Of a DNA stretch of 32,555 nucleotides, positions 9,676 to 20,857 are shown piece after piece. The notes under the pieces were generated by a model that saw nothing but the letters and a program-made list of their open reading frames with translations, had not been told where the DNA came from and ran no database searches. This DNA comes from Desulfurivibrionaceae bacterium (GTDB taxonomy: Bacteria > Desulfobacterota > Desulfobulbia > Desulfobulbales > UBA5123), in assembly GCA_030145325.1 (NCBI GenBank), contig JAQYVW010000002.1, positions 69,619-102,173 on the forward strand. The letters are read 5' to 3'. Made by a program: the position numbers and the translations under genes. Numbering within the stretch: position 1 is the first letter of the stretch; each line of letters opens with the position of its first letter.

Positions 9676-9706
9676 AAATAATATCAGAAATTAAGAGGAG
9701 AGATTG

Positions 9707-10027
9707 ATGCCTGAATTTAAGGATGTCACCATCGTTAAAAAAGCAAATATCTACTTTGATGGCAAAGTGACCAGCCGAGCCATTGTTTTCCCCGATGGTT
9801 CCCGTAAGACTCTGGGGATCATGTTGCCTGGTGAGTATGAGTTCAACACCGATGCTCCGGAGCTGATGGAGATTATGGCTGGTGATCTGGAAGTGTTGTT
9901 GCCCGGTGAAGAGGTTTGGCAAACCATCAAGGGCGGAGAATCTTTTGAGGTTCCCGGAAATGCTAAATTTTCCCTCCGGGTCAAAGCAGTCATGGATTAC
10001 TGCTGTTCTTTTCTCGGCCAGCGCTGA
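9707..10027 (+). CDS. ppnP: PpnP-type pyrimidine/purine nucleoside phosphorylase
   Basis: A 106-residue cupin-fold protein of the PpnP (formerly DUF1255) family, which in E. coli splits nucleosides with phosphate into base and ribose-1-phosphate. Family hallmarks are [13 protein letters not shown] near the N-terminus, [19 protein letters not shown] in the middle, and the end motif [12 protein letters not shown]. The length is slightly above the 94 residues of the E. coli protein. I chose the ATG at 9707 because AGAGGAG precedes it; a TTG one codon earlier is in frame. It is a soluble cytoplasmic enzyme in a gene line with the membrane protein before it and the dehydrogenase after it. Confidence 0.9.
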
Positions 10028-10101: not shown

Positions 10102-11196
10102 ATGGCGAAATTTGCGGTGATCGGATGTGGTAATGCTGGGGCGGCGGTGGCGGCGCATTTAACCTTGCTGGGCGAAAAGGTCAGTATCTATGATATTGCT
10201 GACAGCCAACTGGCGCCTATTATTGCCAATGACAACACCATCACCTTGCAGGGCAAGATTGATGTGACCGGGGAGGCAAAAATTGATCTGGTCACCCAGG
10301 ATCTGGCCGCTGCCATTGATGGCGCGGAACTTATCATTTGCACCACCGCTGCCCATGTCCATAAGCATGTTGCCAGAGACCTTATTCCGCATCTAAAAGA
10401 TGGGCAAATCATCCTCCTTAACCCCGGTCGTACCGGCGGGGCGCTGGAATTTCGGAAGATTTTTCAAGAAGGGAACTGCCAGGCCGATGTGCTGGTGGTG
10501 GAGTCTCAGACCATCCTCTATGCGTGTCGTCGTGATGGGGCGGTGGTGAATATCTTTGGTAAAAAAAGGCGGGTGGCTTGCTCCGGGCTGCCAGCAGTGG
10601 AACTGCCCCGATTTGAAAAGATTATCCAGCGCGTTTTTCCGGAATTTGTTCTTGCTGAGGGTGGGATCTGGGCCACCTCCCTTGATAATATCGGCATGCT
10701 CTTTCATCCCACCCCGACCTTGTTGAACATGGGTCGGATGGAATCCGGCACCCCCTTTGATTATTACATCGATGGCTTCAGTCCCTCCATTGCCGCCCTG
10801 GTGGAGAGCTTGGATAACGAGCGCTTACTGGTGGCCAAGGCCTTAGGGGTGGAGTTGCCCACCGCTGTCCAGTGGTTGGAAAAGACCTATGGGGCCAAGG
10901 GGGAGAATCTCTATCAGGCCCTACAAAATAATGTCTCGTATCAGGGGATTAAGGCGCCGATGTTTAAAGAGGTGGGCGACAAGCTGGGTCTGCGCTATGT
11001 CATTGAAGATGTTCCCACCGGCTTGGTTCCCTTTGCCGAGCTGGGCCGAAAGTTCGGGGTGGCAACGCCAGCCATCGACTCGGTTATCAATCTTGCCAAT
11101 GTCATCTATGGCGCTGATTTTAAAGCCAGTGGGAGGAGCTTGGCTCAACTTGGTTTAGAGGAGATGAGCGAAGATCAGATCAGGAACTTATCCTGA
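10102..11196 (+). CDS. Opine/octopine dehydrogenase family NAD(P) oxidoreductase
   Basis: A 364-residue cytoplasmic oxidoreductase. The N-terminal Rossmann fold has the dinucleotide motif VIGCGNAGAAVAAHL (residues 5-19). The C-terminal half (about 190-330) matches the helical octopine/nopaline dehydrogenase domain, with DNIGMLFHPTPTLLN and YYIDGFSPSIAAL containing the conserved His and Asp. Family members reductively condense an amino acid with an alpha-keto acid or act on related substrates; the substrate cannot be read from the sequence. No opine-metallophore genes are beside it. A strong AGGGAGG site precedes the ATG. It faces the tpi-like gene convergently. Confidence 0.85.
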   Translation: MAKFAVIGCGNAGAAVAAHLTLLGEKVSIYDIADSQLAPIIANDNTITLQGKIDVTGEAKIDLVTQDLAAAIDGAELIICTTAAHVHKHVARDLIPHLKDGQIILLNPGRTGGALEFRKIFQEGNCQADVLVVESQTILYACRRDGAVVNIFGKKRRVACSGLPAVELPRFEKIIQRVFPEFVLAEGGIWATSLDNIGMLFHPTPTLLNMGRMESGTPFDYYIDGFSPSIAALVESLDNERLLVAKALGVELPTAVQWLEKTYGAKGENLYQALQNNVSYQGIKAPMFKEVGDKLGLRYVIEDVPTGLVPFAELGRKFGVATPAIDSVINLANVIYGADFKASGRSLAQLGLEEMSEDQIRNLS

Positions 11197-11249: not shown

Positions 11250-11939
11250 TCAGGACAGTTCTGCCCAGATCCGCGCGAATTCATGCGGGTCAAGGCTCGC
11301 CGACCCTGCCATCACCCCACCGATTCCATCAATGTCTAGATAAGCCGCCGCGTTGGCTGCGTTTAGGGAGCCACCATAGAGGATCGGCTGCTGGGGGAGA
11401 CGGGCGTGGATCTCTTGCACCACTTCGCTAACCAGCTCCAGGGACTGGGGAATATCAATACCAATGGCCTCCACTGGCCCATAGCCGATGATCACCTTCT
11501 CGGCATCTGCTTCGCTTAAGGCCGCGATCTGGGCCGCTGCGTAAGGCTGATCCAGACAGAGGATGGGGGTGATTCCCACCGTCACCGCCTCCGTTACCTT
11601 ATTGGCAACCTCCTGATGGGTTTCATGAAAATAGCGGCGGCGCTCGGCGTGGCCGACAAAGGTATAATCCACCAGATCTCGCACCATTGCCGCGCTCACC
11701 GCCCCGGTGTAGGCACCGGTGGGGAAAGCTGACAGGTCTTGGCTCGCCAGAGAGATCTGGGTTGTTCCCAGTTCTTGCAGCAGTCTCTGCATTGGTTCTA
11801 GAGAGACAAAGGAAGGGGCGATGATCACTTCTAGGAGCGGGTTTGGCCGGTACACCTTGAGAAAGATGGTCAACCATTGTTCTGCCTCCCTCGTGGTTTT
11901 GTGGGATTTCCAGTTTGCCACCAGATATCGTTTATTCAT
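11250..11939 (-). CDS. Triosephosphate isomerase homologue lacking the catalytic glutamate
   Basis: A 229-residue TIM-barrel protein clearly related to triosephosphate isomerase. Asn9 and Lys11 (VANWKSH), His97 (VGHAERR) and the phosphate-binding YGGSLNAAN and DGIGGVMAGSASL segments are kept. The loop-6 motif YEPVWAIG reads YGPVEAIG: the catalytic base Glu is Gly154 and the Trp is Glu157. I checked this in the DNA, where the codon is GGG. A helix before that strand is also shortened, giving an archaeal-like length (bacterial TIMs are about 250). It probably is not an ordinary glycolytic TIM; it may be inactive, altered in activity, or a phosphoester-binding protein. It lies 24 bp after the methyltransferase gene. 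Confidence 0.88.
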   Translation of the reverse strand: MNKRYLVANWKSHKTTREAEQWLTIFLKVYRPNPLLEVIIAPSFVSLEPMQRLLQELGTTQISLASQDLSAFPTGAYTGAVSAAMVRDLVDYTFVGHAERRRYFHETHQEVANKVTEAVTVGITPILCLDQPYAAAQIAALSEADAEKVIIGYGPVEAIGIDIPQSLELVSEVVQEIHARLPQQPILYGGSLNAANAAAYLDIDGIGGVMAGSASLDPHEFARIWAELS

Positions 11940-11963: not shown

Positions 11964-12731
11964 TTATGCCAAAGAGGGCGGGGTCTCTACGTTGTAGCCA
12001 TGGCTGGCAGAGTAGATAGATGCCATGTTGCCATTGATGGCATACTCCACGGGGATTCTAAGGTCCTTGAAAGTAGTAAGGTGGTCGTCCATACTTCTTG
12101 AAACCAGTTTTTTCTTGTTATCTAAGGCTTCAAGGTATTTGTCCGCAAAGCGATTTCCCTTTACCAAGGTTGTAAAATACATCTTTCCTTTTTCATCCAG
12201 AATATTTTGCAAATATCTCAAGAGCTGGCTGGTGTCATCAAGGCAATGCAATAGATTTTCGGAAATAATGGTTTCGAATCTCTTTGCCCGAAATGGCAGG
12301 TGGAGAGCATCATTGTGCAGGAAAACCATGTTGTCTGGAACCTTGCCATTCATGTTGCTCACTCTTGCTTTGGCGATCTTGAGCATTTTTAACGATTGGT
12401 CTACCAAAACAACAGGTCGCTGGGAATATTTTAGATATGTGCTGGCGGTAAAAGCCAGCGAGCCGCAGCCAAGGTCCAAGACGAATCCTTTCTGGCTGGA
12501 TCGTAAGGCACGGTGGGCAAGAGAGGCGAATATCTCGATGGAATAACCCCAGATAAGTCTGTTGTAGATTGGATTGCATGCCACCCAGTCGTAAATGTTG
12601 CCAAACTTGGTGTCATAGGTGTTGCTGTCAACGACATCAGATCCAACTGAATAGATATGCGGCTCGATCAACTTGAGGGCGGTTGCGTTGGTAAGCAACG
12701 TCGATAAGGTATTTTCGTCAAGTGTTGTCAT
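11964..12731 (-). CDS. Class I SAM-dependent methyltransferase
   Basis: A 255-residue cytoplasmic protein with the SAM-binding motif I FVLDLGCGSLAF (residues 83-94), an acidic motif II (VVLVDQS) and a post-I region FLHNDALHLPF that fits Methyltransf_11/25 domains. The N-terminal 60 residues (YDTKFGNIYDWVACNPIYNRLIWG) resemble small-molecule methyltransferases. The substrate is unknown. AAGGAGAG lies before the ATG. It is between a TetR regulator and the TIM-like gene in one direction, which suggests a small regulated operon. The codon and base composition looks more AT-rich than the nif genes beside it. Confidence 0.85.
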   Translation of the reverse strand: MTTLDENTLSTLLTNATALKLIEPHIYSVGSDVVDSNTYDTKFGNIYDWVACNPIYNRLIWGYSIEIFASLAHRALRSSQKGFVLDLGCGSLAFTASTYLKYSQRPVVLVDQSLKMLKIAKARVSNMNGKVPDNMVFLHNDALHLPFRAKRFETIISENLLHCLDDTSQLLRYLQNILDEKGKMYFTTLVKGNRFADKYLEALDNKKKLVSRSMDDHLTTFKDLRIPVEYAINGNMASIYSASHGYNVETPPSLA

Positions 12732-13649: not shown

Positions 13650-14369
13650 TCATAGCTGGCCGGTTTGGGTAGTCCGAGGGATGGAGATAGAGCTCAAGTT
13701 GTTTCCCTTAGGGCATGAGTCCGGGGAGGTGCGGGTCAGCCAGTCGCGGGTGATTATCCCCCGGTCGATGGGGAGAACATGGTCGGCCAGATACATGGCC
13801 TCGTCAAGGTCGTGGGTGACCAGCAGGATCGGGATCTTGAGGGAGGCTTTCAACCCTTTTAATTCCTTGCGTAACTGTTTGCGAGTGAGGATGTCCAGGG
13901 CTGAAAAGGGTTCGTCCAGCAGCAGCACCTTGGGGTCGCTGGCCAGGGCCTGGGCCAGGGCTGCTCGCTGCCGTTCGCCGCCGGAGATGCGATTTGGTTT
14001 GCGGTGGCGCAGTTCGCTGATGTTAAAAAGGTTTAGCAGTTCCTCAACGCGGCCTGGTTCTTTGGCGGCGAAGGCGATGTTTTTTTCTACGCTCAAGTGC
14101 GGGAAAAGGGTGTGATCCTGAAAGACGTAGCCCAGTTGCCGTTGCTGTGGCGGCAGGTTGAGCCCTTGCTCGCTATCGAACCAGTCGCGCTGTTCATGGC
14201 TGATCAGCCCGGTGTCGGGCCTTTCCAGACCGGCCAGCATGCGAATGATACTGGTCTTGCCTGCGCCCGAGGGGCCGACAAAAGCCAGCAACTGGCCTGC
14301 CTCACAGGTGAAGCCGACGTCGATGGTGAAATGGGGGAATCGTTTGACCAGATGGGCGTTAAGCGGCAT
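13650..14369 (-). CDS. modC: Molybdate ABC transporter ATPase ModC, short form
   Basis: ATP-binding subunit of the molybdate importer, 239 residues. Walker A GPSGAGKTS, Q-loop YVFQDHTLFPHL, signature ISGGERQRAALAQAL, Walker B VLLLDEPFSALD and the switch His in VTHDLDEAMYLAD are all present. The protein ends soon after the ATPase core; E. coli ModC has about 350 residues because of a C-terminal MOP (molybdate-binding) domain that is absent here. The last 40 residues (after VLPIDRGI) look unlike other ATPases and may be unstructured or reflect an old frameshift. The gene overlaps modB by 11 bp. Assignment to molybdate rests on the neighbouring modA, modB and modE. Confidence 0.85.
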   Translation of the reverse strand: MPLNAHLVKRFPHFTIDVGFTCEAGQLLAFVGPSGAGKTSIIRMLAGLERPDTGLISHEQRDWFDSEQGLNLPPQQRQLGYVFQDHTLFPHLSVEKNIAFAAKEPGRVEELLNLFNISELRHRKPNRISGGERQRAALAQALASDPKVLLLDEPFSALDILTRKQLRKELKGLKASLKIPILLVTHDLDEAMYLADHVLPIDRGIITRDWLTRTSPDSCPKGNNLSSISIPRTTQTGQL

Positions 14370-15024
14370 GGGCTGACCTCCGGTTGAGTCCGTTTACCAC
14401 CAGCAGAATTACATAACTGATGGCCACCAGGGCCAGGGAAAGAATCCACGCTTCTTGATAGCGCAGCGCTTCCACGTACTCGTAGATGGCGATGGAGGCG
14501 ACCTTGGTCTTGCCGGGAATGGAGCCGCCCACCATCAGGATCACCCCGAACTCGCCCATGGTGTGGGCAAAGGCCAGGATCCCGGCAGCGATCAGGCCGC
14601 TGATGGTGTTGGGGAGAATGACTCGAAAATAGGCGGTAACCGGGGTGCAACCCAGCACCTGGGCCATCTCTAGCAAGCGACTGTCCAATCGTTCATAGGC
14701 GGTTTTGAGGGGTTGCACCGCATAGGGCAGGCTGTGAACCATGGCGGCAAGGAGGATGCCGACAAAGGTGAAGACCAGCGGTTGGCCGGTGAGTACCTGC
14801 CAACCTTTACCCAGCATCCCGCTAGGCCCCATTAGCACTAGCAGGTAAAAGCCCATCACCGTGGGCGGCACCACCAAGGGCAGGCCGATCAGCGCCTCCA
14901 CCAGAAACTTGCCGGGAAAACGAAAGTAAACCAGGCAATAGGTGAGCGGTGCCGCCACCACCAGCAACAGGGCAGTGCTGATCAGGGCCAGCTTGGCGGA
15001 GAGAATGAGTGGGGTGAGATCCAT
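14359..15024 (-). CDS. modB: Molybdate ABC transporter permease ModB
   Basis: Inner-membrane permease, 221 residues, normal for ModB. It shows five or so hydrophobic helices, PLVVPPTVMGFYLL near residue 50, the EAA loop (AQVLGCTPVTAYFRVILPNT) and the ModB-typical AHTMGEFGVILMVGG segment. It lies between modA and modC, overlaps modC by 11 bp and is 103 bp from modA, a gap that holds heptamer repeats and a hairpin. It forms the homodimeric channel for ModA-delivered molybdate. Confidence 0.93.
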   Translation of the reverse strand: MDLTPLILSAKLALISTALLLVVAAPLTYCLVYFRFPGKFLVEALIGLPLVVPPTVMGFYLLVLMGPSGMLGKGWQVLTGQPLVFTFVGILLAAMVHSLPYAVQPLKTAYERLDSRLLEMAQVLGCTPVTAYFRVILPNTISGLIAAGILAFAHTMGEFGVILMVGGSIPGKTKVASIAIYEYVEALRYQEAWILSLALVAISYVILLVVNGLNRRSAHAA

Positions 15025-15052
15025 GGTGTTTTCTTTTCGTGTAATGAGTTGT

Positions 15053-15094
15053 GAGGGCTGAGGGCTGAGGTTTGAGGACTGAGGACTGAGGACT
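15053..15094. repeat. Six tandem heptamers between modA and modB
   Basis: Six 7-bp units in a row: GAGGGCT twice, GAGGTTT, then GAGGACT three times. They lie between the modA stop and the modB start. Units of 7 bp in noncoding DNA can change copy number by slippage. Confidence 0.85.
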
Positions 15095-15123
15095 TAGGTT
15101 GCGTTCTCTCAAACCTCAGTCCT
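15061..15123 (-). promoter_or_regulatory. Intercistronic hairpin between modA and modB
   Basis: AGGGCTGAGGTTTGAG (15061-15076) pairs with CTCAAACCTCAGTCCT (15108-15123) with one mismatch in 16, enclosing most of the heptamer repeats. There is no U-tract after it in the transcribed direction, so a strong terminator is unlikely. It could stabilise the modA message end or reduce modBC expression, as seen in other transporter operons. Confidence 0.6.
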
Positions 15124-15127
15124 TTGT

Positions 15128-15868
15128 TTATCGATACCCGTAGGCCGCAGTGATTTCAGCCGCTGCTTTAGTAAATAGAAACTCCCAAAAACGTCTGGCA
15201 GCATCATTGTCGGCAGCTGTTTTAAGGGTGCAGCCCTTCTGTACCACCAGCGGGGCCTGGGGGATCAACCAGTAGTGACCCTTTTGGCCGATTTCACTTA
15301 AGGCATAAGAGAGGGCGGCAAAGCTGAAGCGGGTGGCGCCCAGTTGGCTGTACTGAAAGGACTGCCCAGCCGATTGGGCGAAAACCAGCCGGGATTCCAT
15401 GCTTTTGCGCAAGCCGGTGACCTTGAGGGCGGTGGCGGCGGCCATCCCGTAGGGGGCCACTTCGGGGCTGGCCATGGCGATGCGGCCCTGGTCGGTGCGC
15501 AACGCCTGTTGCCAATCAGTTGCTTGGTTAGCCTGGTCTTTTGTCCATAGGACTACTCGGCCGCGAGCATAAATCAGCGGTTTTTCGGCCAAGCCTGCCT
15601 GGTAAAGAAGCTCGGGCCGTTTGCCATCGGCGGCGAGAAAGATGTCGTAGGGGGCGCCGTTTTTGAGCTGCCCGTAAAGTTTGCCGGTGGAAGAGGAACT
15701 GTAGGTCACCTTGATCCCGGTTTGCCTGGTAAAGAGGGGGACCAGTTTTTCAAGGGTTTGGAGGAAGTTCGCCGCCACTGCCACTGAGACGGATGCCGCC
15801 GTTGCCGGGCCAGCTCCAAGGAACAAGGTCAACAGGGAGGTTGCGGTGATTTTGGTGAACCGTCTCAT
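15128..15868 (-). CDS. modA: Periplasmic molybdate-binding protein ModA
   Basis: Substrate-binding protein of the molybdate importer, 246 residues from the ATG at 15868. I chose this start because it gives a clean signal peptide (MRRFTKITATSLL...ATA-AS) and starts one base after the modE-like stop; longer in-frame starts run back into that gene. The mature protein shows VAVAANF, YSSSSTGKLYGQLKNGAPYDI with the conserved oxyanion-binding serines, and FLAADGKRPELL. These fit the ModA family. Confidence 0.93.
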   Translation of the reverse strand: MRRFTKITATSLLTLFLGAGPATAASVSVAVAANFLQTLEKLVPLFTRQTGIKVTYSSSSTGKLYGQLKNGAPYDIFLAADGKRPELLYQAGLAEKPLIYARGRVVLWTKDQANQATDWQQALRTDQGRIAMASPEVAPYGMAAATALKVTGLRKSMESRLVFAQSAGQSFQYSQLGATRFSFAALSYALSEIGQKGHYWLIPQAPLVVQKGCTLKTAADNDAARRFWEFLFTKAAAEITAAYGYR

Positions 15869-15869
15869 C

Positions 15870-16250
15870 CTAAAACTCCAGTTTGTTGCTCTCCTCGGCG
15901 AGAAATTTCTCCAATCGTGCGTGCAGGCTCCAGAAGGCATTTATCGCCTCTTCTCCGGCCTGGGTGAGTTTGGTGCCGCCGCCGCCCTTGCCACCGCTTA
16001 TCTTTTCCATCAATGGTTCCTTGGCCTGCCGGTTCATGGAATCAACCAGATCCCAGGCATGCTTATAGGACATCTCCATGGACTTGGCAGCCTTGGAGAT
16101 GGAGCCGAATTCGCGGATTCGTTCCAGCAACACCACCCGCCCATGGCCAAGAAAGGTGCCATCCTTACCTTCGATCCAGGCCCGACCGTGGCAGTGGTAG
16201 CCTTCGCCGGGGTTGCCGGGCTGTTTTTTCTGGCGATGCGATTTAGTCAT
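15870..16250 (-). CDS. ModE-like winged-helix regulator without a molybdate-binding domain
   Basis: A 126-residue DNA-binding protein that matches the N-terminal half of ModE: GHGRVVLLERIREFGSISKA, then AAKSMEMSYKHAWDLVDSMN and the glycine-rich wing GGKGGGGTKLT. E. coli ModE has about 260 residues with a tandem MOP sensor domain; that half is absent. I place the start at the ATG at 16250, since the only upstream in-frame option (TTG at 16286) would read through a ModE operator. No Shine-Dalgarno precedes the ATG, so the transcript may be leaderless. It is the first mod gene and lies one base before modA. How it senses molybdate is unclear. Confidence 0.85.
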   Translation of the reverse strand: MTKSHRQKKQPGNPGEGYHCHGRAWIEGKDGTFLGHGRVVLLERIREFGSISKAAKSMEMSYKHAWDLVDSMNRQAKEPLMEKISGGKGGGGTKLTQAGEEAINAFWSLHARLEKFLAEESNKLEF

Positions 16251-16281
16251 ACCGTTATATATACAAGAATATAACGGTATG
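16248..16281. promoter_or_regulatory. ModE operator covering the modE start codon
   Basis: A perfect 13-bp inverted repeat with an 8-bp spacer: CATACCGTTATAT, ATACAAGA, ATATAACGGTATG. Its core CGTTATAT-N-ATATAACG matches the known ModE consensus (ATCGNTATATA-N6-TATATAACGAT). It overlaps the ATG of the modE-like gene and lies between that gene and the nif genes, so it should control the mod operon and the regulator itself. Confidence 0.85.
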
Positions 16282-16305
16282 GTCAAGCCATGCAGGGCAG
16301 GGGGG

Positions 16306-16614
16306 TCAGCTGATTTCTCTAATCGCCCCGGCGTAGATTACCGGTTCAATGCCAGCCTTGCCCAGTTCCTCGGTGGGTTTGTCGCCGATTTTGGTGCAAT
16401 ACACCTTCTTGCAACCGGCAAGGGCGGCAAGGACGCCAGCAAACCTGCTCTCTTCGTAGGGGTGATCCTTGTCGCCGGTGGAATATGCTGCCACTGCCCG
16501 CTCTTCGATGAAAACAGGCGTTGGCCCACCTGTTTCATAGATCAAAAAACGTTCTGCCTTGCCGAAATGGTCGTTCACTGTTTGGCTGTCACTGCTGACA
16601 ATAGCGATTTGCAT
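16306..16614 (-). CDS. Stand-alone NifX/NafY-family FeMo-cofactor-binding protein
   Basis: A 102-residue protein of the dinitrogenase iron-molybdenum cofactor family (NifX, NafY, VnfX and the NifB C-terminal domain). It starts MQIAIVSSD and has the family motif NDHFGKAERFLIYE, then CKKVYCTKIGDKPTEELGKAGIEP. These proteins bind NifB-co or FeMo-co precursors and carry them between NifB, NifEN and the apo-enzyme. It lies 59 bp downstream of nifB, whose C-terminal domain is related to it, with AAGGAT before the ATG. It may be NifX proper, but small homologues serve other roles, so I leave the symbol blank. Confidence 0.85.
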   Translation of the reverse strand: MQIAIVSSDSQTVNDHFGKAERFLIYETGGPTPVFIEERAVAAYSTGDKDHPYEESRFAGVLAALAGCKKVYCTKIGDKPTEELGKAGIEPVIYAGAIREIS

Positions 16615-16673
16615 GGGGTACCATCCTTTGCTTGTTCTGTCTGCACCGCTAATGGTGCGTTGCCATGGTCAAC

Positions 16674-17951
16674 TCAGCCGCAACCGCCGCCGCTGCCGGA
16701 GCAAGCGCCTTCGCTGCACGAACGCCGCCGAGCCTTGTAGGTAGAGATACTTTCGCCCCGATAGACAGCCGCCAACCCCCGGTCAATGAAACCGCTCATC
16801 TCCATGGGTTCAACGCCTGCTTTCTTGAGGATCTTGGCGGGGGTCTCACCAATGCCATGGACCAACACCGCCCGGCAATCTGCCAGCACCCGGGAAAGTC
16901 CCTGCCAGCGCTGTTCGCCGCCACCGGCTTGGGGGGTGTCTCGTTCTTCGACCATGGCAAAGGCGCCATCTTTTTCTTCCCAGATCTGTAACTTCCACGC
17001 CTCGCCCAGATGCTGGTTGATCAATACCCCTTCCATGGTCGCCACCGCCACATAGGGCCGCACCGCCGCTTTGTTCACCGGTTTAGTAGCACAGGCCGAC
17101 AGGCAGCCCCGGAACTCTTCGGTGCGATCATTGTCCAGCAGCCCCACCGCATCGGCCCGGCAGCGGGTGCAGTGACGCATCTGCGGCAGGTATTTTTCAG
17201 CCTTTTGGCGAAGCTCCACCATGGTCTCTTTGCTGGGTTCGATGAGATCCTCGAACACCGTGTCAGCGTTGGGCAACATGGCCATGCAATTGAGCAGGTC
17301 CACCCCCAGTTCCTTCATCTTGGCGGCCACCGCTTCCACATGGTGATCGTTGATGCCGGGGATGACGATGGTGTTAACCTTCACCGTCACCCCGTATTTC
17401 TTCAGCAGTCGCACCGATTCCAATTGTCGGGCCAGGAGCAGTTCTGTGCCCTGCAAGCCTCGGTAGACCATCTTGCCATCTTTTACCCAGCTGTAGATCT
17501 TGGCGCTGATGGTGGGATCTACGGCATTGATGGTGACGGTGACGTGGGAAACACCGATGGCGGCGATCTCTTCAGCGTAGGGCGCAAGGTTCATGCCGTT
17601 ACTGGCCAGGCAAAGAATCAGCTCCGGGAAGCGGTTGCGGATCAGCCGCATGGTGGTGAGGGTCTCGTCGGCATTGGCAAAGGGGTCGCCGGGGCCAGCA
17701 ATCCCGGCCACCGTGATCCGTGGTTCCTTGGCCAGTACCTTTTCCATATATTCCAAGGCCTGATGCGGGTTGAGCACCGAACTGGTCACCCCAGGCCGCG
17801 ATTCGTTGACGCAGTCATACTTGCGGTTGCAGTAGTTACATTTGATATTGCACTTGGGCGCCACCGGCAGATGGACGCGTCCATACTGGCCTTTAACTTT
17901 GGCGTTGAAACAAGGGTGGCGATTTACGTCGATGGTAGCTGGGTGAGTCAT
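16674..17951 (-). CDS. nifB: Nitrogenase cofactor biosynthesis protein NifB
   Basis: Radical-SAM enzyme that builds the 8-iron carbide-containing NifB-co, 425 residues. The SAM cluster motif is CNIKCNYC (Cys34, Cys38, Cys41), followed by GxGxP-like AGPGDPFAN. Further cysteines expected for the K-clusters are in HPCF (Cys14) and HCTRCRADAVG. The C-terminal third (about 295-400) is a NifX-like domain, as in most bacterial NifB. The tail (SCSEGACSGSGGGCG) is Cys/Gly rich. GAGGAGAT precedes the ATG, 15 bp after nifN. The order nifE-nifN-nifB fits a cofactor assembly operon. Confidence 0.96.
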   Translation of the reverse strand: MTHPATIDVNRHPCFNAKVKGQYGRVHLPVAPKCNIKCNYCNRKYDCVNESRPGVTSSVLNPHQALEYMEKVLAKEPRITVAGIAGPGDPFANADETLTTMRLIRNRFPELILCLASNGMNLAPYAEEIAAIGVSHVTVTINAVDPTISAKIYSWVKDGKMVYRGLQGTELLLARQLESVRLLKKYGVTVKVNTIVIPGINDHHVEAVAAKMKELGVDLLNCMAMLPNADTVFEDLIEPSKETMVELRQKAEKYLPQMRHCTRCRADAVGLLDNDRTEEFRGCLSACATKPVNKAAVRPYVAVATMEGVLINQHLGEAWKLQIWEEKDGAFAMVEERDTPQAGGGEQRWQGLSRVLADCRAVLVHGIGETPAKILKKAGVEPMEMSGFIDRGLAAVYRGESISTYKARRRSCSEGACSGSGGGCG

Positions 17952-17966
17952 GATAATCTCCTCGCT

Positions 17967-19331
17967 TTACATGTATGAATAACCAACGGATGAAGAATCC
18001 TGTTTTTGTTCGATGACACTGTTAACGATCTGATCAAAAAGCATTTGGGCGCCCCGGTAACCAAGGTGGAGGATACGCTGGCCACCAAGTCGGTCATGGA
18101 CAGGGAATCCCACCCTGAGCAGAGGGATGTTCAGTTTCTTGGCCAGCGGATAACCTTTGCTGTGGCCGATGAGCAGATCCGGGGCGAGGCTTTCCGCTTC
18201 TTCGGCGATCTCGAAGAAATCCATCCCTTCGCGAACCAGGGGTTGTTCCTTAAGGATGTCGTCGCTGACGGCAGCGATGGCTGCGGTGAGTTTTCCTGAT
18301 TTGCCGCCGGAAGCGCAGAGCACCGGTTTGATACCGAATTCCACCAAAAGGGCGGTGAGTCCCACCACGAAATCTTCTTCGCCGTAGACAATGGCCCGTT
18401 TGCCGAACACATACTTGTGGCCATCCACGAAGCTGTCTACGTAGCGGCCCCGTTCACGGCTGTATTTTTCTGGAGTGGTTTTGCCGCTGATTGTTTCAAG
18501 CTCAGCAAAGAAGAGATCTGTTTCCCGTAAGCCCATTGGTAACCCCAGGCGGGTACAAGGAATGTCGAAGCGATCATTGAGCAGCAGGCCCGATGAGAGT
18601 TTCTCGTTCACGGTGCGACCGAACTCGATGGTGGCTTGGGCCGTTCCCATGCTCTTGATCTCGTTGATGGTGGTGCCGCCGCCGGGGATCATCTCGTATT
18701 TCCTTAAGGCCGGGCCATCCAGGGTATCGGAGATGTCCGGGAGGATGACGGTGGGCAGGGCAAAGTCCGCCATGATCTCTTGCAGGTAACGGATGTCGGC
18801 TGGGGAAATGAAGCCGGGCAGCAGGTTTACTGTTTCTGAGGGGTGACCCGCTGTCGCAAGGGAGTCCACCGCCGCCCGCACCGCGCCGTGGAATCCTTCG
18901 ATATGGGTGCCGTCATAGCTGGGGGTGGAAACATGAACCATCTCGGGCAGCGTTTGCCCCTTGGCTTCGGCGCAAAACTGATGGAGGAGCATGTGGACGT
19001 CATCGCCGATGGTTTCGGTGAGGCAGGTGGTGGCGATACCCACCAGACTGGGCTGAAATTTATTGATAACGTTGCTCAGCCCCTGCTTGATGTTGGCGCC
19101 ACCGCCGTAGATGGCATTTTTTTCGCCCAATGATGACGAGGCGATATCGATGGGCTCATTGAAATGGCTGATGATGTAGCGACGCATGTAAGTGGCGCAA
19201 CCTTGCGAGCCGTGCAGGAAGGGCACTGCGCCCTCAATGCCGCGAAAAGCGATCATGGCCCCTAAGGGGCGGCAGAGTTTGCAGGCGTTGGTGGTGGAGA
19301 CATATTTTTTCTTATAGGTCATGGTGGTCAT
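17967..19331 (-). CDS. nifN: FeMo-cofactor scaffold protein NifN
   Basis: Beta-like subunit of the NifEN scaffold, on which NifB-co is matured into FeMo-co, 454 residues. The N-terminal TNACKLCRPLGA and HGSQGCATY motifs match NifN, with Cys17, Cys20 and Cys45 as candidate cluster ligands, and TTCLTETIGDD follows as in NifK/NifN proteins. AAGGAA before the ATG at 19331 supports this start over the ATG three codons later. It lies downstream of nifE across a 150-bp gap filled by a palindromic element, and 15 bp before nifB. Confidence 0.94.
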   Translation of the reverse strand: MTTMTYKKKYVSTTNACKLCRPLGAMIAFRGIEGAVPFLHGSQGCATYMRRYIISHFNEPIDIASSSLGEKNAIYGGGANIKQGLSNVINKFQPSLVGIATTCLTETIGDDVHMLLHQFCAEAKGQTLPEMVHVSTPSYDGTHIEGFHGAVRAAVDSLATAGHPSETVNLLPGFISPADIRYLQEIMADFALPTVILPDISDTLDGPALRKYEMIPGGGTTINEIKSMGTAQATIEFGRTVNEKLSSGLLLNDRFDIPCTRLGLPMGLRETDLFFAELETISGKTTPEKYSRERGRYVDSFVDGHKYVFGKRAIVYGEEDFVVGLTALLVEFGIKPVLCASGGKSGKLTAAIAAVSDDILKEQPLVREGMDFFEIAEEAESLAPDLLIGHSKGYPLAKKLNIPLLRVGFPVHDRLGGQRILHLGYRGAQMLFDQIVNSVIEQKQDSSSVGYSYM

Positions 19332-19370
19332 AGTGTGTTTCCTTGTATTGTCCCTGTATGGTCTGTCTGC

Positions 19371-19390
19371 TTATGTCCGGTTATGTCCGG
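19371..19390 (+). repeat. Direct 10-bp repeat TTATGTCCGG
   Basis: Two adjacent copies of TTATGTCCGG lie in the nifE-nifN gap beside the palindromic element. Function unknown. Confidence 0.7.
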
Positions 19391-19416
19391 TGGGTCCAGT
19401 CGGTAAATTCGCATGA

Positions 19417-19527
19417 GTAAATCGCCAGGCAATGGTGCAGATGCAAGGAAGAGGCGTGTCTGCTATAGCGGGCGCTATGCGGATCAGGCCGAAGACACAG
19501 CAGATGCGCTATTGCCGGGTGATTTAC
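19417..19527. repeat. Palindromic element overlapping the nifE 3' end
   Basis: Left arm GTAAATCGCCAGGCAATGGT... (19417-19444) mirrors the right arm (19500-19527) over about 28 bp with a few mismatches, and an inner dyad ATAGC/GCTAT lies at 19465-19478. The right arm and part of the centre lie inside the nifE coding region, whose stop is at 19484. The structure suggests a REP- or MITE-like repeat that inserted at the end of nifE. Confidence 0.75.
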
Positions 19528-20857
19528 GGGGTACGAAGCGCCAGACTGGGCTCATAACCGAGGCATGAACCTCGCGGGCGAAGTTGCGCATCCCGGCAAA
19601 ACCGGCCAAGATTTCTTTCCGTTCATGGTTGTGATCGCAGAAGGCAACCCCCAGCTTGTAAGCGATGGGTCGTTCCTTGACCCCGCCCACGAAGATGTCC
19701 ACATCTTTTTCTTTGAGGAAGGAGGAGAGTTCCAAGGGGTTGGAATCATCGACGATGATGGTGCCGGGGTCGCAGATCTCAGCCAGCTCCTCGTAATCCT
19801 CGTTGGTGCCGGTTTGGGAACCCACCATCACCACGTCCATGCCCAGGAGACGAAAGGCTTTGATCAGCGAGAAGGCCTTGAAGGCCCCGCCCACATAGAT
19901 GGCTGCCTTCTTGCCGGTGAGTTCCCGGCGGTATTCATTTAATTCCGCCTGGAGCCCCTTGACCTCGTCGGCAACCAGTTGCCGGGTGCGGGCCATGATC
20001 TCCTCGTCTTTGAAGAAATCCGCCACTGCGTACAACGCCTCCGCCATGTCTTCGACGCCAAAGTAAGAGACCCGCAGGTTGGGAGTCCCGAACCGTTTTT
20101 TCATCATATTGGCCAGGTCCATGGTGGCGCCGGAGCACTGGACCAGATTCAGGGCCGCGCCGTGGGCGCGTTGGATATCGCCCACTCGCCCGTCGCCGGT
20201 GATGTTGGCCACCACTTGGACGCCGATCTTTTCAAAGTATTCCCGCACCAGCCAGATCTCACCGGCCAGATTGAAGTCGCCAAGGATGTTGATGGAGTGT
20301 TTGGATATTCCTTTGGTGTCGCCCATCCCCACCAGCTTGTTCATGGCTTCGCAGGCGGCAGCGTATCCGGCCCGTTTATTGCCCTTGAAACCTTCCGACT
20401 GCACGGGCAGCACCGGGATTCCTTTTTCGGCGGAAACTTTTTTACATACCGCTTCCAAATCGTCGCCGATGATGCCGACAATGCAGGTGGAGTAGACAAA
20501 GGCTGCCTTGGGTTGGTGGCGGTCGATGAGTTCGATGAGGGCTTGGTAAAGCTTCTGCTCGCCGCCGAAGATAACGTCGCGTTCTTGGATATCGGTGGAA
20601 AAGCTCAATCGGTGCAGTTCTGGACCTGAAGAGAGGGCACCACGGATATCCCAGGTGTAGACGGCGCAGCCGATGGGGCCATGCACCAGATGAAGGGCGT
20701 CGGCGATGGGATAGAGCACCACCCGTGAGCCACAGAAAACGCAGGCCCGTTGGCTCACCGCCCCGGCCAGGCTTTCTTTGTCGCAGGACAAGGCAAATGG
20801 CTTGTCGCCTTTGCGGTGGATCTGTTCGGTGCGTTCTTCGTAAATTACGGCTTCCAT
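19484..20857 (-). CDS. nifE: FeMo-cofactor scaffold protein NifE
   Basis: Alpha-like subunit of the NifEN scaffold, 457 residues. RACVFCGSRVVLYPIADALH and HGPIGCAVYTWDIRG are diagnostic of NifE, and Cys39/Cys42, Cys64 and Cys125 (YSTCIVGIIGDD) are candidate cluster ligands. It is the first gene of the nifE-nifN-nifB-nifX-like unit and has a sigma-54 promoter and NifA-type upstream site before it. The SD is AAGGGAG. The last dozen or so residues (KSPGNSASAVSSA) are encoded by the arm of a palindromic element and are probably not ancestral. The nifH, nifD and nifK genes are not in the window. Confidence 0.96.
   Translation of the reverse strand: MEAVIYEERTEQIHRKGDKPFALSCDKESLAGAVSQRACVFCGSRVVLYPIADALHLVHGPIGCAVYTWDIRGALSSGPELHRLSFSTDIQERDVIFGGEQKLYQALIELIDRHQPKAAFVYSTCIVGIIGDDLEAVCKKVSAEKGIPVLPVQSEGFKGNKRAGYAAACEAMNKLVGMGDTKGISKHSINILGDFNLAGEIWLVREYFEKIGVQVVANITGDGRVGDIQRAHGAALNLVQCSGATMDLANMMKKRFGTPNLRVSYFGVEDMAEALYAVADFFKDEEIMARTRQLVADEVKGLQAELNEYRRELTGKKAAIYVGGAFKAFSLIKAFRLLGMDVVMVGSQTGTNEDYEELAEICDPGTIIVDDSNPLELSSFLKEKDVDIFVGGVKERPIAYKLGVAFCDHNHERKEILAGFAGMRNFAREVHASVMSPVWRFVPRKSPGNSASAVSSA

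Follow-up and report, generated by a model that had tools for sequence, protein, structure and literature searches.

The window, a 32,555-nucleotide stretch of DNA from a Desulfurivibrionaceae bacterium (contig JAQYVW010000002.1), carries on its reverse strand a gene for a homologue of triosephosphate isomerase (TIM) that lacks the catalytic glutamate. TIM is the usual textbook case of catalytic perfection, and its glutamate is regarded as indispensable. The gene begins with ATG and encodes 229 amino acid residues followed by a stop codon, with no internal stops. Its features are listed in Table 1, and the residue numbers of TIM given there and in the text follow the yeast numbering.

Table 1. 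Features of the Glu-less TIM gene and its upstream neighbor in the window. Counts refer to the 131 rows of the family alignment.
Feature	Position	Strand	Basis or conservation
Glu-less TIM paralogue	11250..11939	-	ORF, Pfam, AlphaFold2 TIM fold
Gly154 (GGG) at the position of the catalytic base Glu165	11478..11480	-	codon read, family alignment
Remodelled loop 6, Y153-GPVEAIGIDIPQ-S166: Pro166 kept, Trp168 to Glu157, Thr172-Gly173 to Ile-Asp	11442..11483	-	
Asn9-Trp10-Lys11 (Asn11, Lys13 of TIM)	11907..11915	-	Asn 131/131, Lys 130/131
Thr78 (Thr75, loop 3)	11706..11708	-	129/131
His97-Ala98-Glu99 (His95, Ser96, Glu97); Ala replaces Ser96	11643..11651	-	His 130/131, Glu 125/131 plus 4 Asp
Glu117, helix 4, near-invariant, family-specific	11589..11591	-	130/131; Q/M/L in CPR TIMs, G in canonical TIM
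Cys128-Leu129-Asp130 (Cys126, Gly128)	11550..11558	-	Cys 131/131; Asp/Glu130 121/131
Loop 7, Tyr188-Gly-Gly-Ser191	11367..11378	-	YGG 129-130/131, Ser 76/131
Loop 8, Gly212-Ser-Ala-Ser-Leu216; second Gly (Gly233) lost	11292..11306	-	Gly233 retained 5/131
SAM-dependent methyltransferase gene, upstream, 24 bases from the Glu-less TIM gene	11964..12731	-	

The encoded protein matches the Pfam TIM model (PF00121) over residues 6-225 with a score of 169 bits against a cut-off of 20.1. Its score with TIGR00419 is 93.5 bits, below the equivalog cut-off of 130.6, whereas the TpiA of the same organism scores 206.4; taken alone this shortfall is weak evidence, in that a Glu-bearing CPR TIM (L012) falls short as well (110.7). 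The AlphaFold2 monomer model, calculated from a 24-sequence family alignment, displays the TIM fold with a mean pLDDT of 92 and a pTM of 0.91, and comparison with solved TIM structures in Foldseek gave TM-scores by query length of ~0.85-0.91, in keeping with a (beta/alpha)8 barrel. The lowest confidence block is loop 3 (pLDDT 72), as would be expected where a dimer is modelled as a monomer, for loop 3 of a TIM enters the partner subunit. Thr75 is located on this loop, which in TIM extends to the active site of the neighboring subunit.

The Glu-less gene is possibly co-transcribed with the methyltransferase gene, judging from their spacing on one strand, and this arrangement is not conserved elsewhere. 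The convergent neighbor at 10102-11196 (+) encodes a protein of the opine (octopine/nopaline) dehydrogenase family (PF02317), and is preceded by a gene for the nucleoside phosphorylase PpnP (9704-10027). The open reading frames at 13650-20857 (-) read, in translation, as a molybdate transport set beside NifB-, NifN-, and NifE-like genes; by these translations the window adjoins a nitrogen-fixation region. In the families designated f6 and f7, the Glu-less gene mostly ends the run RicT-metG-yggT-(divIVA)-yggU, the domains of which were confirmed, and in the basal lineages, that of the window included, the neighbors vary. The f6/f7 gene order is read as vertical inheritance and not as proof of function. 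Indeed, the neighborhood was discarded as a guide to a functional partner, since no neighbors are conserved beyond these two families.

A search for a second, canonical tpiA, proposed in the sequence-only reading of this DNA, located the gene in the same genome (G000:C149:8807-9544). Its product carries an AYEPVWAIGTG loop 6 and is ~30% identical to the window protein, and the gene directly follows pgk (C149:7603-8739). The separation between pgk and tpiA is 70-310 bases in the four genomes in which both were located (G000, G118, G059, and G133), and a canonical tpiA was found in every checked genome whose assembly has pgk. In three genomes, G174, G238, and G163, the first two of which are near-complete, the Glu-less protein was the only TIM seen. 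That it is truly their sole TIM was rejected: pgk, the neighbor of tpiA elsewhere, is missing from those assemblies too, and the absence of tpiA is therefore probably an assembly gap. The genome G034, which lacks a Glu-less copy, contains two canonical-scoring TIM genes (L199 and L211, 309 and 294 bits).

Loop 6 and the ligand pocket

Loop 6 of the window protein reads IIGYGPVEAIGIDIPQ, which bears out the Glu to Gly replacement at the catalytic base that had been claimed from the sequence. Orthologues with the same glycine, which that reading had suggested looking for, occur in many genomes. The residue at the Glu165 position, tabulated over the 131 family rows, is Gly in 68, Thr in 45, Cys in 11, Ser in three, and Asp, Glu, Asn, or Ile in one each, and all four glycine codons and all four threonine codons are used there. 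The GGG codon as a reading error was ruled out on these grounds, namely glycine in 68 of 131 members from separate genomes, encoded by four codons, along with Thr, Cys, and Ser in others. The sole member with glutamate at the base position (L096:3935-4678, genome G166; SYEPETADF) has lost His95 (GQRERR), and its YGGS motif has become YGSE; its glutamate is an apparent regain within a diverging copy.

A different acidic residue is common in this loop. Either Asp or Glu occurs at position 156 or 157, corresponding to Val167 and Trp168 of TIM, in 126 of the 131 members (96%) and in 72 of the 73 from f7. The residue exchanges between Asp and Glu and shifts between the two positions, and five members are without it. 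Glu117 was considered as a substitute base and rejected: standard TIM topology would place it at the distal end of helix 4 and thus remote from the pocket.

The remainder of the pocket is in large part retained. The statement that Asn9, Lys11, and His97 are intact in the window protein proved correct, and Glu99, Cys128, and Tyr188-Gly-Gly-Ser are likewise present. Across the family, Asn11 and Cys126 occur in all 131 rows, Lys13, His95, Gly209, and Gly210 in 130, and Thr75 and Pro166 in 129; Asn11, Lys13, His95, Glu97, Pro166, Gly209, and Gly210 are all retained jointly in 126. The further statement that the phosphate-binding loops are intact is right in part. Gly171, Ser211, and Gly232 are present in the window protein, but Thr172-Gly173 is replaced by Ile-Asp and Gly233 by Ser213, such that PVEAIGID stands where TIM has PxWAIGTG and the phosphate Gly/Ser set is incomplete. 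This half of the pocket has loosened throughout the family, with Gly171 retained in 24, Ser211 in 76, and Gly233 in five of the 131 rows, and given this drift phosphate as the ligand is not assured from the sequences. In unliganded TIM, the hydroxyl group of Ser96 forms a hydrogen bond with the carboxylate of Glu165 (PMC12874384). With that partner gone Ser96 would be free to vary, and, as expected, its position is occupied by Arg or Gln in 29 of the 32 f6 members, which form one large clade. Glu77, an intersubunit contact, is Ala in 113 of the 131 rows.

Compared with TpiA (PF00121/TIGR00419, EC 5.3.1.1), the family thus has in common the fold, the length class, Asn11, Lys13, Thr75, His95, Glu97, Cys126, Tyr208-Gly-Gly, and Pro166. 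It differs in the absence of Glu165, the change of Trp168 to Glu or Asp, an altered IGTG hinge and Gly233, and a shorter loop 5.

Distribution and descent of the family

A profile search of all 258 Desulfobulbales genomes showed that ~144 encode this second, Glu-less TIM; the raw tally of 146 contained G034 and G194, whose matches are canonical TIMs. The order is the only one by which its class is represented in the genome collection. Among 395 genomes drawn evenly across the phylum, members came from this order alone, with scores of 251-362 bits against 164 for the best other TIMs, and the family was absent from the ~379 genomes outside Desulfobulbales. Overall, members score at least 233 bits (fragments lower) and other TIMs at most 164. 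A scan of genome contigs yielded six close relatives of the window protein, 52-65% identical and all reading GYGPV, from Desulfobulbaceae and poorly named metagenome-assembled genomes. A recognizable copy is absent from two other genomes of the genus to which the window belongs. In the sister genus, L011/L021 (G001) has lost Lys13 (NWGS) and Glu97, its loop 6 reads YDPYVPPG, and the gene looks relaxed. In the genus coded g41, the Glu-less genes L069, L082, L093, L100, L114, and L116 occupy a second location with different neighbors, and in five genomes (G170, G173, G175, G182, and G184) the gene at the second location coexists with another copy; the family has duplicated again in g41.

The family is monophyletic in a maximum-likelihood tree calculated with the loop-6 columns left out (bootstrap, 96; SH-aLRT, 97). 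Its sister is a Glu-bearing TIM from two Pacebacteria (CPR) genomes, in both of which it is the sole TIM, and other CPR and canonical TIMs fall outside. Two changes at the Glu165 position suffice on this tree, one loss and one regain in L096. The family shares with the compact Patescibacteria/CPR TIMs (L012 and L013 from Pacebacteria) a length of ~220-230 residues, a WKSHK motif, and a short loop 5 (CVDxxY), and with L012 and L013 the change of Glu77 to Ala. The CPR genomic TIMs, unlike the Glu-less family, retain Glu165 and IG(T/S)G. We infer as the simplest history that a compact CPR-type TIM was transferred into the ancestor of the order, followed by a single loss of the glutamate.

The median dN/dS is 0.15 (range 0.04-0.28, 112 unsaturated pairs). 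For the same pairs of genomes, identity is 60-71% for TpiA and 32-60% for the Glu-less protein; the latter is conserved yet evolves faster than the glycolytic enzyme. According to the tree, the loss of Glu165 happened a single time, in the founding lineage of the family, and the descendant has been under purifying selection beside tpiA since. The loss of an essential catalytic residue in a conserved, selected family is one mark of a pseudoenzyme, the other being a binding or regulatory role in place of catalysis. The initial description of a full, non-decaying gene holds in view of the uninterrupted reading frame, the median dN/dS, and the invariance of Asn, Lys, and His across the family. Among the openly readable papers searched, neither a natural Glu-less TIM nor a TIM pseudoenzyme was found. 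A TIM paralogue family without the catalytic glutamate is thus real, and undescribed within those papers.

Possible functions

In the TIM reaction, Glu165 takes the proton, His95 stabilizes the enediolate, and Lys12/13 stabilizes the phosphodianion, and replacement of Glu165 by Asp alone lowers kcat 1500-fold (PMC12874384). That a protein with the base gone altogether is not a normal TIM, as first proposed, follows from this established enzymology. When the peptide plane of Gly209-Gly210 rotates, it pushes Pro166 and thereby swings Glu165 into the site (PMC6824834). Because the Pro166/Gly209-Gly210 switch is intact in the family, although its Glu165 cargo is gone, loop closure may well have been retained.

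Retention of the altered copy in ~144 of the order's 258 genomes makes a new role probable. What the family has kept is the electrophilic residues together with the closure switch, and what it has lost is the base; the most economical reading would be a ligand-gated, non-isomerizing protein. Isomerization of DHAP and GAP should be impossible without Glu165. A small oxygenated ligand, probably phosphorylated or anionic, would be held between Lys13, His95, and Asn11, and its binding would still drive closure of loops 6 and 7. With closure and binding but no isomerization, the protein would not be a glycolytic enzyme but a ligand-gated TIM-fold protein that serves as a metabolite sensor or as a regulatory or partner subunit. 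Such a neofunctionalized paralogue, a retired isomerase used as a sensor or as a regulatory or partner protein, is the reading we favor with moderate confidence from the comparison of sequences.

The acid at position 167 or 168 leaves room for genuine catalysis, and a relocated loop-6 base is the main rival to the ligand-gated reading. According to this alternative, the protein catalyzes another reaction on a related small carbonyl compound, such as an isomerization, an elimination, or an aldol-type reaction, with the proton moved by a carboxylate at Val167/Trp168 or by Asp130 at the top of strand 5. The prevalence of both acids, the invariance of Lys13 and His95, and the retention of a switch able to carry the loop-6 acid are all consistent with such an enzyme. 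In contrast, the residue exchanges freely between Asp and Glu and wanders between two positions, which disfavors a precisely placed base when the Glu165 to Asp change in TIM is so costly; moreover, five members do without it, and the CPR TIMs L013 and L015 carry Glu168 beside Glu165, such that the acid may predate the loss of the glutamate. On balance such a new enzyme is possible, if rather unlikely, and the specific proposal of an order-wide enzyme that arose after the single loss of Glu165 and employs Lys13, His95, and the loop-6 carboxylate (or Asp130), driven by the closure switch, must be considered doubtful.

The conservation of Asn11, Lys13, Thr75, and Arg98 could instead reflect dimer packing, for these residues also belong to the half of TIM that forms its dimer interface. 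Indeed, the conserved half of the protein comprises loops 1-4, which form the dimer (Asn11, Trp12, Lys13, the loop-3 Gly/Thr75/Gly76, His95, Glu97, and Arg98), the least certain region of the monomer model is loop 3, and a canonical TpiA is always co-encoded in the checked genomes whose assemblies contain pgk. The Glu-less chain might accordingly pair with TpiA, lend it loop 3 and Thr75, and alter its activity or stability. The prozyme of trypanosome AdoMetDC likewise has lost a catalytic residue and is retained beside its active paralogue (PMC6221367), but its fold is different, and the partner of the Glu-less TIM is hypothetical. The replacement of the intersubunit Glu77 by Ala, the low identity to TpiA, and a nearest relationship to stand-alone CPR TIMs rather than to a TpiA duplicate make such pairing improbable. 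A weak but real TIM isozyme with an unusual mechanism appears very improbable from the sequences. An intact fold with Lys, His, and Asn retained speaks for it, as does the lack of another TIM in the near-complete G174 and G238, but the gap in those assemblies probably accounts for the latter, and losing both the base and the loop-6 sequence should lower activity by orders of magnitude. Least credible is a functionless, decaying duplicate. L011 (G001), L119, and L096, the latter two with other residues lost, do look degenerate, and no copy is recognizable in two other genomes from the genus of the window; the counts nevertheless largely refute decay, as even the highest dN/dS value is low, Asn, Lys, and His are invariant at identities down to 32%, and the position after metG-yggT-divIVA-yggU is stable over most of f6 and f7.

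With more than 140 homologues in a natural clade that lack the glutamate and keep the other pocket residues, the family provides a natural experiment on the TIM pocket and its loop switch. If an enzyme with a relocated carboxylate proved true, nature would have re-wired the enzyme that textbooks call "perfect". Glu-less genes that score as Pfam TIM should be excluded from TIM counts in metabolic reconstructions of Desulfobulbales.

TIM paralogues with another job are known, among them the tetrulose-phosphate isomerases EryH and EryI, and these paralogues are not known to lack the catalytic glutamate. The compact sequence matches in the Protein Data Bank are 7r9b (223 residues) and 7r7m (216 residues). 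In the alignment, 7r9b has Asp at the base position (YDPKEAIGTG) and Glu at Trp168, and by its sequence is possibly a natural E165D-type TIM. Two TIMs are also encoded in a Planctomycetota genome (G264; L018/L187 and L180), where L018 forms the last part of an open frame of 638 residues.
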